NCBI RefSeq assembly: GCF_900108915.1
Contig: NZ_FNYH01000005.1
Coordinates: 62,001-126,000 of the forward strand
DNA: 64,000 nucleotides
Direction of reading: 5' to 3'
Origin: Allopseudospirillum japonicum
Lineage (GTDB): Bacteria; Pseudomonadota; Gammaproteobacteria; Pseudomonadales; Halomonadaceae
The translations under genes and the position numbers were made by a program. The notes under the pieces are model-generated. The model did not search any database. It worked only from the letters and a program-made list of their open reading frames with translations, and had not been told where the DNA came from. Positions 6,654-52,044 of this stretch are shown one piece after another. The number at the start of each line of letters is the position of its first letter. The stretch's first letter is position 1.

Positions 6654-8336
<1,683 letters not shown>

Positions 8337-22718: not shown

Positions 22719-25700
22719 CTAAGTATGGGCTTCCAGCCAGTGGTTGAGTTGGTCACGAACTTTAGGGTAATCCTGTATTAAATTCGTTAGTTCTAATATG
22801 AGATGATCAAGCTCTTGATCACGGATCCCATGTTCAATTTGTTTGGCAAGTGCTGAAAACGCATGGAGTTGTAAACTAGCGCTACTTGACTTCAAACGAT
22901 GTGCAATACCTCTAACTGCTTCCAGTCCTTCTGAGTTTGTTAATAAAGCCTCTTGCTGATTTGCATAAGTTTCTAGCTCTTGCATGAGTTGGTTGTTGGT
23001 TTCGATAAATAACCCAACTAATTCAGGTAACGCATCTGCAAAAGTGGCTTCCAATTTATGCCAGTCTGGTTTATCAAGGGCTTGTTCGGCTTGTTCGGCT
23101 TGTTCGGCTTGTTCGGCTTGTTCGGCTTGTTCGGCTTGTTCGGCTTGTTCGGCTTGTTCGGCTTGTTCCGGAGCAGAATGCGGTTGCCACCAAGTTTTTA
23201 AGGCAAAACCTAAGGTCTCTAATTCTATGGGTTTACTAATACAGGCATCCATCTGAACTTGAATTAAAGTCTGTTTGTCATTCGCCATTACATTGGCGCT
23301 TAAAGCAAGGATGGGGCAATATGAGGCATTTTCCTGCTGATATTGACGAATCAAAGCAGTTGCTGTGGGGCCATCCATCACTGGCATATGCCAGTCCATT
23401 AGTACGATATCAAAGTCAATATTTTTCTGTTGATATAAACGTACCGCTTCTTCACCATTAATGGCTTCTGTCACACTGACTCCGAGTGTTTTGAGCATTA
23501 ATCGTGCAACTTGGCGATTGATAGGGTCATCTTCTACTAAAAGCACTTGCATGCCGTTAAGTGCTAATTCAGCCAATTTGGCATCTTCAACTGAGTGAGT
23601 TTTAGGTGGAAAGATAGGTGCTTGCACAAGAGCAGGTGTTTTGCTTGGTGTTGGCAGCTCTGTGCTCAAATATTGTGCTAGTAAGCGGTCTAGCGCGAGT
23701 GCATCTAGCGGCTTTTTAAGTACAGTTTGCATACCAATAGCATGCGCACGCTCCAAAGTAGCCTCTTGGTGAGAGTTAGTTAAACCAATTAAAATGGGGG
23801 GGTGTTTTGGTAAAGCATGCAAAATATGAGTTGTTGCCTCGTAACCATCCATAATAGGCATATCCAGATCCATCAGTACAAGATGCGGATGCCACTCAGT
23901 ACAGATTTGCAAAGCGGCAGCACCTTGAGAAGCAAGGCGCACTTGAGCTGCATAAGGTGTTAGCATTTTTGCCAAGGCTTCACGATTAAGCAGATTATCC
24001 TCAGCGATTAAAATGCGCGCATTTTGGTTAATAGATGCATATTGGTATAAAGGTTGAGGCTCAAGTTCACAAGGCTGAGAAAGTAAATTATAGATTTGCT
24101 GCAATAAACGATTGGGGCTATAGGGTTTATATAAAATCGCATCAATCAAACTTTTATCTTTATTTTCAAGGGCTTGGGTATCCATTGCTGTGCAAAGTAC
24201 CAAAGGTGTTTTCGGTGCTAGTTGGCGTAGTTGGCGCGCGACTTCAAACCCATCGAGATGCGGCATACGCCAATCAATCAAGACTAAATGATAAGGTTGC
24301 CCAGCAGCTTGCGCACTTTGGAAAAGATGCAAACCTTGCTGACCATTGGCAGCACCCTCAGCAAGTAAGCCAAGGTACTCAAGCTGGTGGGTGGCAACCT
24401 CTAATGCAAGTGGATGATCTTCAATGACTAAAACGCGCACTAGGGTATTTGCAGGAATTAGGGGATCTTCAGCCTGATCCTGACTATAGCTGAGCGGAAT
24501 ACTGAAACTAAATTCACTACCTTCACCTAGAATACTTTTAACTTGGATCTCTCCTTGCATCAGCTCAATAAGTTCTTTGCTGATAGCCAACCCCAACCCT
24601 GTACCACCATAGCGCCTTGTCGTTGAGGTATCTGCTTGCGTAAAAGCTTGGAATAAGTCGCCTTGCTGTTCGGGGCTCATGCCAATGCCCGTATCTATCA
24701 CACTAAAGCGTATACGGGCGGTTTCTGCATTTTGTGCCAATACTTGAATGCGAATAATAACTTCACCTTGATCTGTAAATTTGACAGCATTGCTAGTGAG
24801 GTTGACAAGGATTTGGCCTAAACGCAGCGGATCGCCAATAAATTTGTTAGGTAAGCATTTAGGGAAATCAAAAATAAACTCGATACCTTTTTCAGCCGCT
24901 TTAAAACCGATGACATCACTAACATGTGTCAGCACTTCATCCAGATCAAAAGGAATACTTTCTAATTGTAAGCGCTTGGCTTCAATCTTAGATAAATCGA
25001 GAATATCATTAATAATAGAAAGTAAAGACTTGGATGCACCTTGGATTTTTTGTAAATAATGGTGCCAAGACGTGCCTCTTGCTTCCCGCTCAGCAAGTTG
25101 TGTTAAACCAATAATTGCATTGAGTGGTGTGCGAATTTCATGGCTCATATTCGCGAGGAATTCACCTTTAATTCGATTCGCAAGTTCTGCTTGGCGCCGT
25201 GCCTGCTGTAATTCATGCTCTACTTGCTTTTGTTTGGTGATATCTGTACGAATAGAAATATAATGAGTCGGTTTACCTTCTTGATTTAAAAAAGGTACAA
25301 TTGTAGAGCTTACCCAATATAGATCCCCATTTTTATTACGGTTGCATACATCACCATGCCAGACTTGGCCGCGTGCAATGCGTCGCCACATAGACTGGAA
25401 AAATTGGCTATCATGTATTCCGGAGCAAACGACACGGTGGGTTTGCCCTAGTAACTCTTTGCTTAGATAGCCGCTAATAACTTCAAATTTTGGGTTAGTG
25501 TATAATATTTTGCCTTTGGCATCTGTAATGCTGACAATGGCATGCTCGTCAAGTGCTTTGTGGATAAAGGAGCTTTGTTGTAATTCTTTATTGAGCGCTT
25601 GTTTGATGATGAGCATACGGTAAAAAATATAGCCCAAAATAACTAAAGTGATGAGCGTTAAACTCAGTGCTGCAAACATAAAAAAGTGATGTTTAACTTT

Positions 25701-26516
25701 TTGCTGCTCGAAGATAATATTTTGAATACTTGATATTTTGATAAGAGAATCTTTAGCTCTTTCTTGTTGATCTTTAAGCTGGTACAAGGACTTGTTGATA
25801 TATTGGATAAGGTCATATAAGGCAGATGCTTGTTGATGTAACTGAAAGAATAATTTTTTAACAGGCCCCTCAAGGGTTTGGTACAAACTAAAAATATCTT
25901 CTAAATGCTTTTCAATTTTCTTGGATTCATGGTTTTTTTGGTGTTGACTGTTGATTTTATTGAATTCAATCTGTAACGCTTGAATCGATAAACGTATTTG
26001 ATGCTTAGTGACTTGCTCAGGAGTAAATGTATCAATTTGGAGATAAATTTGTAGAATAAGGTTTTCTAGTGCAGTGAATTGTTTGTGAATTTGATATGAA
26101 CCCTCAAATAAAGTGGGGAGTGTATGACGCATTTGACGACTATAATAATAAAACTGCTGCCACGCTAAGCGCAAATCCTCACTTTCTGAGTAATTAATTA
26201 AAGGTGCCAGAGATTCAATAAAGTCGCTTTGTTGTCTAAGGAGAGATTGTAATCCATCTTCATCAGAATGTATGTTTTGATTTTGATAGTGTACTCGGTT
26301 AATTAAAGATAAAGTATGGGCTTCATTGACCAATAAGTGGCTAACAAGTGCTTGGATTTGTTGGTGATTTTCTTGGTAGGGGTCATGAAATAAGCGTACA
26401 CCAAAAGCAAGCGTTAATAAAAGTGCCAAGCCTAAAAGAATATAAGCAACTGACTGAATACCTTGACGTTCTTGGTCTGATGTTTCGATTAGGTATTTAG
26501 GTGAGCTTTTAGGCAT
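22719..26516 (-). CDS. Large hybrid sensor histidine kinase (PAS-HisKA-HATPase-3xREC-HPt)
   Basis: A 1265-residue multi-domain kinase. Order: membrane segment (about 22-42), a periplasmic helical sensor of about 240 residues, a second membrane segment (about 283-303), PAS (about 325-440), HisKA with LANMSHEIRTPLNAI (about 460), HATPase with NAVKFTDQG, GIGMSPEQQ and GTGLGLAIS, three receivers (DWRMP, DLDMP, DWHMP as phospho-Asp sites), a 30-residue Glu-Gln-Ala repeat linker at about 1110, and a C-terminal HPt domain with AHRLKSSSASLQ. It lies 23 bp downstream of the HsbR-like gene and is probably cotranscribed. It could deliver phosphate through its HPt to that regulator; this is inference. 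Confidence 0.93.
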   Translation of the reverse strand: MPKSSPKYLIETSDQERQGIQSVAYILLGLALLLTLAFGVRLFHDPYQENHQQIQALVSHLLVNEAHTLSLINRVHYQNQNIHSDEDGLQSLLRQQSDFIESLAPLINYSESEDLRLAWQQFYYYSRQMRHTLPTLFEGSYQIHKQFTALENLILQIYLQIDTFTPEQVTKHQIRLSIQALQIEFNKINSQHQKNHESKKIEKHLEDIFSLYQTLEGPVKKLFFQLHQQASALYDLIQYINKSLYQLKDQQERAKDSLIKISSIQNIIFEQQKVKHHFFMFAALSLTLITLVILGYIFYRMLIIKQALNKELQQSSFIHKALDEHAIVSITDAKGKILYTNPKFEVISGYLSKELLGQTHRVVCSGIHDSQFFQSMWRRIARGQVWHGDVCNRNKNGDLYWVSSTIVPFLNQEGKPTHYISIRTDITKQKQVEHELQQARRQAELANRIKGEFLANMSHEIRTPLNAIIGLTQLAEREARGTSWHHYLQKIQGASKSLLSIINDILDLSKIEAKRLQLESIPFDLDEVLTHVSDVIGFKAAEKGIEFIFDFPKCLPNKFIGDPLRLGQILVNLTSNAVKFTDQGEVIIRIQVLAQNAETARIRFSVIDTGIGMSPEQQGDLFQAFTQADTSTTRRYGGTGLGLAISKELIELMQGEIQVKSILGEGSEFSFSIPLSYSQDQAEDPLIPANTLVRVLVIEDHPLALEVATHQLEYLGLLAEGAANGQQGLHLFQSAQAAGQPYHLVLIDWRMPHLDGFEVARQLRQLAPKTPLVLCTAMDTQALENKDKSLIDAILYKPYSPNRLLQQIYNLLSQPCELEPQPLYQYASINQNARILIAEDNLLNREALAKMLTPYAAQVRLASQGAAALQICTEWHPHLVLMDLDMPIMDGYEATTHILHALPKHPPILIGLTNSHQEATLERAHAIGMQTVLKKPLDALALDRLLAQYLSTELPTPSKTPALVQAPIFPPKTHSVEDAKLAELALNGMQVLLVEDDPINRQVARLMLKTLGVSVTEAINGEEAVRLYQQKNIDFDIVLMDWHMPVMDGPTATALIRQYQQENASYCPILALSANVMANDKQTLIQVQMDACISKPIELETLGFALKTWWQPHSAPEQAEQAEQAEQAEQAEQAEQAEQAEQAEQALDKPDWHKLEATFADALPELVGLFIETNNQLMQELETYANQQEALLTNSEGLEAVRGIAHRLKSSSASLQLHAFSALAKQIEHGIRDQELDHLILELTNLIQDYPKVRDQLNHWLEAHT
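23080..23169 (-). repeat. 9-bp tandem repeat (10 units) encoding Glu-Gln-Ala in the hybrid kinase
   Basis: Ten head-to-tail copies of GCTTGTTCG on the plus strand; nine are perfect, the last (23161) ends in C. On the coding strand each is read GAA-CAA-GCC. The array forms an unbroken linker between the third receiver and the HPt domain. Unit length is a multiple of three, so copy-number change alters linker length without frameshift. Confidence 0.97.
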
Positions 26517-49242: not shown

Positions 49243-52044
49243 TTAGGGCTTAGTGACTTGTATTTGCACTGAATCTACTTGCTTTTCCGAACTCTGCAAA
49301 TAGGCTGACTGTTCAGCTTGTTCAGCTTGTTCAGCTTGTTCAGCTTGTTCAGCTTGTTCAGCTTGTTCAGCTTGTTCAGCTTGTTCAGCTTGTTCAGCTT
49401 GTTCAGCTTGTTCAGCTTGTTCAGCTTGTTCAGCTTGTTCAGCTTGAACTGGACTGACAGCAACAAGGGCAGCGGCAGCTTCTTCACGCTGGCGGCGACG
49501 TACCTCACGTGGATCATTATAAGCACGGCCATTCGCTAAGATCGAAGGGGCTTGAGAAGCTAGTGCTTCTTCTTGTTGCGGTTTTGCTGTTGGTGCTATT
49601 TCTTGTGCAGTGTCTGCCGTGTTTAGTGTGGGCATCTTTTGATTAGGAGGCTCACCACTGGTAGTAGCTGCTTGCTGTTCGGTAGGCACCGTCTCTAAAA
49701 CAACTTCTGTAGGCCCTTTTTGGGAAGGGGTTGCAGACGATGTAGAAACAGGGTTTTGTTCATCCGATACAAGCACTACAGAAGTTTCGACGACCTGTGG
49801 TTCTGGGATGACAAGAGGTTGTGAATCCGCTGCAATTTGCGTACTTGTGTCTGCATTTGCTTGCACACTTGTGGATGCCGCTTCTTCATTCTCATCCGCA
49901 AACGCAGGTGGAACATCTGCCTGTCCTGTTAAGCGCTCATTGCGCTTACGACGACGCGGATTATTACGTGTGCGCTTACGTGTATCCGGCTTGCTTTGGG
50001 TTGGTTCAGGTATCTCTGTCGTTGATTCCGCTGGTGTGTGTGATTCCTTTTTTTCTTCCTGTTCAGGGGGCGCTACCAGTTCCTCGCGACGGCGTGTACG
50101 TTGAGGCCTTTCTTGACGCTCGTTACGTTTGTCGTCCCGTGGTTTTTCTTGGCTTGGACGTTGTTCCTTGCGTGTACTTTCTGTTGCCTGTGTTGGCGTA
50201 GCGGCTTGATCATTAGGCGCTGTTGTGCTTGCTGCAGCTTTCATCATAGGATGTGGCTGCTGAGGACGTGAAGCGGGAGCACCTTCTGCAGGACGTTGAT
50301 TAAACTGATTAAATAGGCTGCCCAAGCTGCGCATTAAACGATGCAGAATATTGGGTGTTTGCTGATGTGATAAAGCTGCATGTGATTGGGTTAAAGCCTC
50401 CAAGCTGGGCGGCTCTACAGGGGCAGGATTTTGTGGCACTAAGGCTTTGACCGCTGCTTCTGTGCGTGTTTCCGTTGTGGTTGCAGTAGCATAATTGCTT
50501 AAATGAGGTGTGGGTGCTTCTTTGGTGGGCACCGCCAGCTCAATCTCATAACTTGGTAAGCGTTCGTCACCTTCTAAATGGTCATCACGCAACCGAGTGA
50601 CTTGGTAATGAGGGGTGTGCATTTCTGGGTTTGGCAGAATGAGTACATGCACTTCTTGGCGCTTCTCGACTTCACTAATCGCAGCGCGTTTTTCATTGAG
50701 GAGATAGGTGGCTACATCAACTGGCAAGATGGCACGAACTTGTGCAGATCTGTCTTTTAAGGCTTCTTCTTCAATTAAACGCAAGACGGATAAAGCTAAG
50801 GATTTGACATCGCGGATGGTGCCTTGACCATCGCAACGCGGGCATACCACACCACTTGTTTCACCTAAAGAAGGACGCAAACGCTGGCGTGACATCTCCA
50901 TCAAACCAAAGCGAGAAATACGGCCGATTTGTACGCGTGCACGATCTAATTTGAGTGCATCACGCATACGGCTTTCGACTTCACGCTGGTTTTTTACCGG
51001 TGACATATCAATAAAGTCGATAACGATTAAACCACCAATATCGCGCAAACGGAGTTGACGGGCGATCTCATCTGCTGCTTCTAGATTGGTTTGTAAGGCG
51101 GTTTCTTCGATATCACCACCGCGGGTAGCGCGTGCAGAGTTGATATCAACGGAAACTAAAGCTTCTGTATGGTCTATGACGATGGAACCGCCAGATGGCA
51201 ATTTAACTTCACGCTGAAACGCAGTTTCAATTTGTGACTCGATTTGAAAACGTGAGAATAAAGGAACATCATCTTGATAAAGTTTAATTTTATGATGGTA
51301 AGAGGGCATCACTTGACGGATAAAACCAAGGGCTTCTTCATAAACACCTTGATTATCAACGAGGACTTCACCAATATCTTGGCGCAAATAATCACGCATA
51401 GCGCGAATAATCACGTTAGATTCACGGTAAATTAGAAAAGGTGCAGGATGTTGCTGTGCTTCTTGGGTAATGGTTTCCCAAACCTTCACTAGATAGTCAA
51501 GATCCCACTGTAATTCTTCCGCTGTACGGCCCACGCCTGCAGTACGCACAATCACACCCATATTTTCAGGGAGTTGCAGTTGGTTCATGGCCTCGCGTAG
51601 TGCAGCACGTTCATCGCCTTCAATGCGGCGTGAAATACCACCAGCGCGTGGGTTGTTAGGCATCAAAACTAAATAGCGCCCAGCTAAGCTGACAAAAGTA
51701 GTTAAGGCAGCCCCTTTATTGCCTCGCTCTTCTTTATCAACTTGAACGATAACCTCGATACCTTCCTTAAGGACTTCCTTGATATTGACGCGGCCTTGAG
51801 GCTCACGAATAAAATATTCGCGTGCGATTTCTTTTAAGGGTAAAAAGCCGTGGCGATCAGCACCAAAATCAACAAAAGCCGCCTCTAGGCTAGGCTCAAT
51901 CCGGGTAATACGCCCTCGGTAAATATTGGCTTTGCGTTGTTCGCGTGTGCCAGATTCGATATCTAAATCGTACAAGCGTTGCCCATCGACCAGCGCAACT
52001 CTAAGCTCTTCAGGCTGAGTCGCATTAATTAGCATTCTTTTCAT
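49243..52044 (-). CDS. rne: Ribonuclease E
   Basis: RNase E cuts single-stranded RNA and is the scaffold of the degradosome. The 933-residue protein has the catalytic half (1 to about 520): [21 protein letters not shown], the S1 domain ([18 protein letters not shown]), DNase-like site with [10 protein letters not shown] and VIDFIDMSP, and the Zn-link CPRCDGQG (about 405). The C-terminal half is disordered, with Arg-rich RNA-binding segments near 650 and 715, and ends with a 45-residue Gln-Ala-Glu repeat. It is divergent from rluC, the E. coli arrangement. Confidence 0.97.
49312..49446 (-). repeat. 9-bp tandem repeat (15 units) encoding Gln-Ala-Glu in RNase E
   Basis: Fifteen perfect head-to-tail copies of TTCAGCTTG on the plus strand, read CAA-GCT-GAA on the coding strand. 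The array lies close to the C-terminus of RNase E in the disordered tail. Perfect conservation of all 15 units indicates recent expansion; unit size keeps the frame whatever the copy number. Confidence 0.98.

Follow-up and report, generated by a model that had tools for sequence, protein, structure and literature searches.

A perfect Gln-Ala-Glu array in the acidic end of Allopseudospirillum japonicum RNase E and its probable origin by recent 9-bp expansion

A 2014 study of gammaproteobacterial RNase E reported tandem repeats to be conserved in its noncatalytic region, and proposed slippage as their origin and repeats as seeds of new binding motifs (PMC4435900). The RNase E of Pseudomonas aeruginosa binds PNPase directly through the motif TGRALNDPREKRRLQREAERLAREAAAAA and RhlB through an arginine-rich motif, AR1, as stated in the available part of a second report (PMC11964227), and a third describes helicases of Pseudomonas syringae whose C-terminal extensions carry positively charged residues, consistent with the E. 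coli case (PMC10783127). Further afield, the available descriptions of Borg aaTRs (PMC9879509) and of the acidic C-terminal tail of Hfq (PMC5606850) offer points of comparison for repeats and charged tails.

Here, we describe a perfect Gln-Ala-Glu (QAE) codon array in the gene of Allopseudospirillum japonicum for RNase E, the enzyme that initiates RNA decay, found in a 64,000-nucleotide stretch of contig NZ_FNYH01000005.1 (positions 62,001 to 126,000; hereafter the window), and compare it with arrays elsewhere in the genome and in relatives. The array belongs cleanly with the tandem repeats of the RNase E noncatalytic region and with Borg-type repeats. With the former, as far as the available texts describe them (PMC4435900; Pseudomonas REER, PMC11964227), it shares a disordered scaffold, a proposed expansion by slippage and a repeat number that varies between species; those repeats are of REE/REER or AEPV type and lie in the arginine-rich or AEPV-rich part, whereas that of A. 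japonicum is a perfect 9-bp acidic array past the NDPR motif. With Borg aaTRs, as covered in the accessible text, the likeness extends to perfection at the DNA level, a unit divisible by three, independent formation, mostly disordered context, and similar composition in related proteins encoded by unique DNA units, although Borgs are archaeal extrachromosomal elements with pervasive repeats and A. japonicum carries arrays in a handful of genes of a bacterial chromosome (PMC9879509). Hfq is a possible functional analogy, being an RNA-binding protein with an acidic disordered tail; in the portion of that work available, its acidic tip is short and its autoinhibition measured, whereas the RNase E and RhlB tails described below are known by sequence and charge count (−15 for the RNase E array and −50 for the helicase tail) (PMC5606850). 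In the open-licence literature, judged by titles and the starts of abstracts, we found no paper on these RNase E and RhlB arrays.

The array and its place in RNase E

Positions are those of the window, and the RNase E features are as follows.

49243..52044, minus strand: rne, RNase E, 933 aa, assigned from the open reading frame and matches to NF008074 and to Pfam RNase_E_G, RNase_E_G_Thio and S1
49933..49980, minus strand: arginine-rich stretch of the RNase E scaffold, 16 residues, from sequence and position; a candidate RNA- or RhlB-binding element
49468..49530, minus strand: NDPR short linear motif, a 21-residue segment from residue 839, assigned by position and ortholog conservation
49312..49446, minus strand: (CAAGCTGAA)15 encoding (Gln-Ala-Glu)15, residues 867–911, net charge −15, from Tandem Repeats Finder (TRF) and translation
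49246..49311, minus strand: C-terminal end past the array, 22 residues, from translation

The 933-residue protein scores 964.3 bits against NF008074 (NCBIfam cut-off 908), placing it in the RNase E family, and 346 bits against Pfam RNase_E_G, with S1 and RNase_E_G_Thio also matched. Matches at RNase E level (E < 1e-200) were present in 57 of 58 genomes searched, A. japonicum included, and the sole match in the remaining genome (G047) is weaker (6.2e-83). TRF reports a period of 9 from 49310 to 49446 with 15.2 copies, 100% matches and zero indels, and translation from 49446 down to 49312 gives exactly 15 in-frame Gln-Ala-Glu codon triplets, in agreement with the 15 perfect units of the initial annotation. 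That annotation had set the array at the C-terminus of RNase E; it does lie near the end, but 22 residues come after it. Being a perfect nucleotide repeat with a unit divisible by three inside an open reading frame, the array has the attributes of a Borg-type aaTR.

The array starts 24 residues past the N of NDPR. We recognized this motif from a 16-residue segment, beginning at residue 839, that matches the NDPR-type scaffold sequence TGRALNDPREKRRLQRE quoted in the available part of the P. aeruginosa report (PMC11964227), and by analogy with that species it would be the motif expected to hold PNPase. The arginine-rich stretch, compared by analogy and unaligned to AR1, may likewise be an RNA- or RhlB-binding element. 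NDPR is present in all 11 close RNase E orthologs and in 11 of 12 further genomes (the exception is G042). None of the 11 close orthologs has an array after NDPR, where their tail is short, and no QAE array occurs in the last 170 residues of 29 other orthologs examined, of which four show no NDPR (L021, where a masked stretch loses the frame, and L027, L035 and L040, which are cut at the locus end). Since RNase E of G056 (L333) has about 100 mostly acidic residues past NDPR and no perfect array, a long acidic end can arise without one and is not unique to A. japonicum.

AlphaFold2 run without an alignment predicts a single helix over residues 845–931, with block pLDDT values of 88–95 across most of the array. 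Because QAE-like repeats are readily predicted as helical, we treat this model as weak evidence, and the end of RNase E is probably either disordered or a helical and highly negative tail. The predicted continuous helix sits awkwardly with calling this end disordered. No significant RNA structure was detected in the array transcript (z = −1.06), and promoter and terminator scans around rne gave values at shuffle level.

Recent expansion and the question of dispersal

A. japonicum uses CAA, GCT and GAA at frequencies of 0.73, 0.26 and 0.70, as estimated from 232,253 codons in long open frames of the sampled stretches, which puts the chance that 14 further QAE units would all keep the codons of the first at ~10^-12. 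An old repeat under selection at the protein level would show mixed synonymous codons, and we therefore interpret the RNase E array as a recent expansion at the DNA level. Our preferred reading, with a probability of roughly 0.8, is that a 9-bp unit expanded recently and in this lineage, through replication slippage or unequal recombination, within the acidic, disordered C-terminal end just past NDPR, and that this array was born independently of a similar one in a sensor kinase gene (below). The array would persist because a 9-bp unit preserves the frame and because acidic Ala/Gln/Glu/Thr sequence is tolerated, and may be favoured, at this end of the protein; an RhlB-type helicase of A. japonicum would have had its tail built likewise from other units. 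With slippage as the presumed DNA mechanism, the best reading is that it expands acidic codon units within disordered tails, and events of this type have precedents in RNase E and in Borg proteins.

The kinase features are these.

22719..26516, minus strand: hybrid sensor histidine kinase, 1265 aa, with PAS, HisKA, HATPase, three receivers and Hpt
23085..23165, minus strand: (CAAGCCGAA)9 encoding (QAE)9, residues 1118–1144, in the linker that joins Hpt to the last receiver

TRF places the kinase array, 26 kb from that of RNase E, at 23079–23168 with 10.0 copies, comprising nine complete QAE units and flanking partial units in frame, and the same uniform-codon probability is near 10^-8 (calculated with 10 units, though 9 are complete). 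The kinase itself was matched at E < 1e-150 in A. japonicum alone among 11 genomes searched. As first annotated, the units of the two arrays are one base apart, CAAGCTGAA in RNase E and CAAGCCGAA in the kinase, and their host genes are indeed unrelated.

From this pair the initial annotation had proposed a genome-wide propensity for the 9-bp unit, arising either by dispersal or by selection for an acidic-polar Ala/Gln/Glu helix. Dispersal would mean that the unit or a whole array was copied between the two genes, or was spreading through the genome, and the location of both QAE arrays within 26 kb, with none elsewhere, speaks for it: a search for (CARGCNGAR)3 across 2.74 Mb in 30 contigs, four short contigs of which read as N, returned the RNase E and kinase arrays only. 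The same pattern was found in 2 of 196 genomes searched, A. japonicum and G161, where it lies in the coding sequence of a 221-aa protein. Yet the one-base difference between the units is fixed in every copy, from which we infer that the two arrays formed independently, as Borg-type aaTRs do. Single units are also not over-represented outside the arrays (33 occurrences of CAAGCTGAA against 45 expected, and 27 of CAAGCCGAA against 28.5, in 1.5 Mb sampled), and no doublet of either 9-mer occurs there in the 1,505,094 bases sampled (55% of the genome, 6,957 bases read as N). Other arrays of the genome are built from 6-, 9- and 15-bp units, and an identical CAAGCTGAA array recurs in RhlB of two Marinobacterium species, which is consistent with convergence. 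On the genome-wide pattern search and the unit counts in the 55% sampled we reject dispersal of the 9-mer, and hold copying in any form to be highly improbable.

A scan for perfect coding arrays of at least 40 nt, covering 55% of the genome, gave as hosts the kinase, RNase E, the RhlB-type helicase (three arrays), an MltC-type lytic transglycosylase (Pro-Thr), a 434-aa acidic protein and a gene with a His-Asp run, the last of which we take to be ZnuA. The 434-aa protein (L204:2391-3695, minus strand), without an NCBIfam match, contains a (V/A/I)QAEE run that is imperfect overall, with 27 QAEE motifs and a 15-bp unit that includes CAAGCCGAA. PNPase is array-free (714-aa open frame; stretch L181). 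The related genome G002 had zero arrays in 400 kb, where about two would be expected at A. japonicum density, so this count carries little weight. Selection for acidic-polar sequence thus gains from the AET, AE, ET and (V/A/I)QAEE arrays, which are built from unrelated DNA units yet share residues, and loses from the Pro-Thr and His-Asp arrays. The initial annotation had also looked to further arrays or length variation to tell a propensity from coincidence: the outcome is mixed, since no further QAE arrays turned up, but other acidic arrays did, and other RNase E arrays vary in copy number among close relatives.

Two repeats of other kinds were observed in passing. A perfect 8-bp array (GATTTAGG, 10.2 copies), whose unit breaks the reading frame, lies on a 3.6-kb contig (L213:302-383). 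Within the window, a short repeat (CATGCCACC) at 6654–6699 closes a 547-aa minus-strand open reading frame and is presumably the usual Gly-Gly-Met tail of GroEL.

Acidic tails and arrays in RhlB and in relatives

The RhlB-type helicase of A. japonicum (genome G000; L051:424-2268, or G000:C21:115423-117264) came to our attention through its tail, which matched the RNase E array, and the array scan made later was independent of that match. It scores 556.1 bits against NF002340 (RhlB), the best of the 25 families listed and just below the cut-off of 564, and is probably a partner of RNase E. Past the core it carries 173 residues with a net charge of −50, mostly made of three perfect arrays, AET (14.7 copies), AE (13.3) and ET (20.8), while its first 40 residues have a charge of +10. 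In 28 of 30 loci (L231–L260) RhlB ends 45–93 residues from HRIGR, the long ones being A. japonicum and G022. A wider search matched RhlB in 194 of 201 family genomes, and among the matches listed only G000, G022, G030 and G066 (the last known from match extent alone) extend beyond query residue 470. A sign-reversed, slippage-built RhlB tail beside an RNase E array is what may be new here.

Of 53 RNase E genes, 11 carry a perfect array of at least 24 nt (7 of 41 in one set and 4 of 12 in another); arrays could be missed in five genes that are truncated where the locus ends or masked in part, and the partial gene L269 was left out of the count. At two RNase E array sites, close relatives differ in copy number between near-identical flanks: a KAE array has 13.9 copies in G030 and 3.9 in G066 (L268 and L332, same genus), beginning QAE-KAE in both, and a 6-bp Glu-Ser array has 13.7 copies in G280 and 5.7 in G281 (L339 and L334). 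These differences were observed in relatives, at arrays other than (QAE)15 of A. japonicum.

Scanning one genome per species across all bacteria for (CARGCNGAR)5 returned at least 118 stretches from many phyla, and among the matches listed the hosts include RhlB-like tails of Marinobacterium halophilum, M. marinum and M. stanieri. The unit CAAGCTGAA is shared exactly by RhlB of M. halophilum and M. marinum, while M. stanieri uses CAAGCTGAG. All eight Marinobacterium genomes searched have an acidic RhlB tail, of 88–209 residues and net charge −21 to −50; five carry a perfect 9-bp array near the C-terminus (9.3–17.9 copies), three of them encoding QAE and two QSE, a sixth has a 6-bp Glu-Ala array and the remaining two lack an array. 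The DNA unit thus varies while charge and place are kept, and the QAE arrays of this genus are consistent, at the level of sequence, with convergence with A. japonicum. An AQSDDAP or AQSDE motif lies upstream of the array region in six of the eight tails (L324–L331), absent from the two shortest (L329 and L330), and could be a candidate binding motif. QAE arrays also occur in acidic linkers or ends at L132 and L144 (Glaciecola) and L143 (Edwardsiella anguillarum), whose hosts we take to be DnaX and FtsY, respectively. Given these presumed DnaX and FtsY hosts, the QAE repeat is not peculiar to degradosome proteins.

Function of the acidic arrays

Whether the arrays do anything beyond being tolerated is a separate matter from how they formed, and two readings, both compatible with slippage, bear on it. 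On the first, the acidic arrays of RNase E and RhlB would have a selected function as tunable nucleic-acid mimics, competing with RNA at arginine-rich motifs or with the basic N-terminus of RhlB, so that copy number dials RNA affinity or degradosome condensation. The opposite charges of the helicase tail and its first 40 residues suit such a role, as do the long acidic RhlB tails of separate lineages (G000, G022, G030/G066 and all eight Marinobacterium genomes) and, within Marinobacterium, the constancy of charge and position across QAE and QSE units; the acidic tail of Hfq is an established precedent in the accessible part of that work (PMC5606850). RNase E arrays are also commoner where the RhlB tail is long: with a minimum length of 80 nt, 5 of 12 long-tail genomes have one against 1 of 37 short-tail genomes (Fisher P 0.002, or 0.007 without G000), and with a minimum of 24 nt the figures are 7 of 12 and 3 of 37 (P 0.0008), with thresholds set after the data were seen, kinship uncorrected, eight of the 12 long-tail genomes from one genus and genomes partly picked for their arrays. 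Tail status was tallied by hand, and G026, G029, G036 (which has a short RNase E array) and G056 were excluded from the 53, their RhlB end being unseen. For these reasons the association is a lead rather than a result. Weighing further against mimicry, arrays are unpaired in Marinobacterium, where G280 and G281 have an array in RNase E and none in RhlB, RhlB ends short in the 37 compared genomes, most of them without an RNase E array, and QAE arrays recur in the presumed DnaX and FtsY. We consider a mimic function plausible but less likely than not; were it right, the arrays would affect RNA and protein binding in the degradosome by electrostatic competition with arginine-rich motifs.

The other reading is pure neutrality, in which the arrays are chance products of slippage that disordered ends tolerate, having neither an effect nor a preference of composition, and we put its chances slightly short of even. 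Perfect 9-bp arrays in the all-bacteria scan fall in all six frames, with 48 of 86 outside the QAE frame among the matches listed, and A. japonicum has Pro-Thr and His-Asp arrays too. However, the QAE frame is used by the other 38 of these 86 listed matches, above one in six (the frame was picked as the longest open one, a noisy choice in high-GC genomes), and Marinobacterium RhlB keeps its acidic composition despite the change of unit. A broader proposal, for which we hold out still less hope than for mimicry as such, is that in several Pseudomonadales lineages (A. japonicum, G030/G066 and Marinobacterium) slippage has repeatedly endowed RNase E and RhlB with acidic tails or segments. Together these would form a nucleic-acid mimic of tunable length in the degradosome, and the usual RNA-binding, basic C-terminal extension of RhlB would become a repelling or self-inhibiting one.

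Should the acidic tails prove to matter, the main RNA-decay machine would have in array length a dial that mutates fast, and the Marinobacterium species, whose RhlB carries QAE and QSE arrays of differing length, would offer a natural series for testing it. Should they have no effect, the arrays would still be a clear example of new protein tails built by slippage, with relatives already differing in length.
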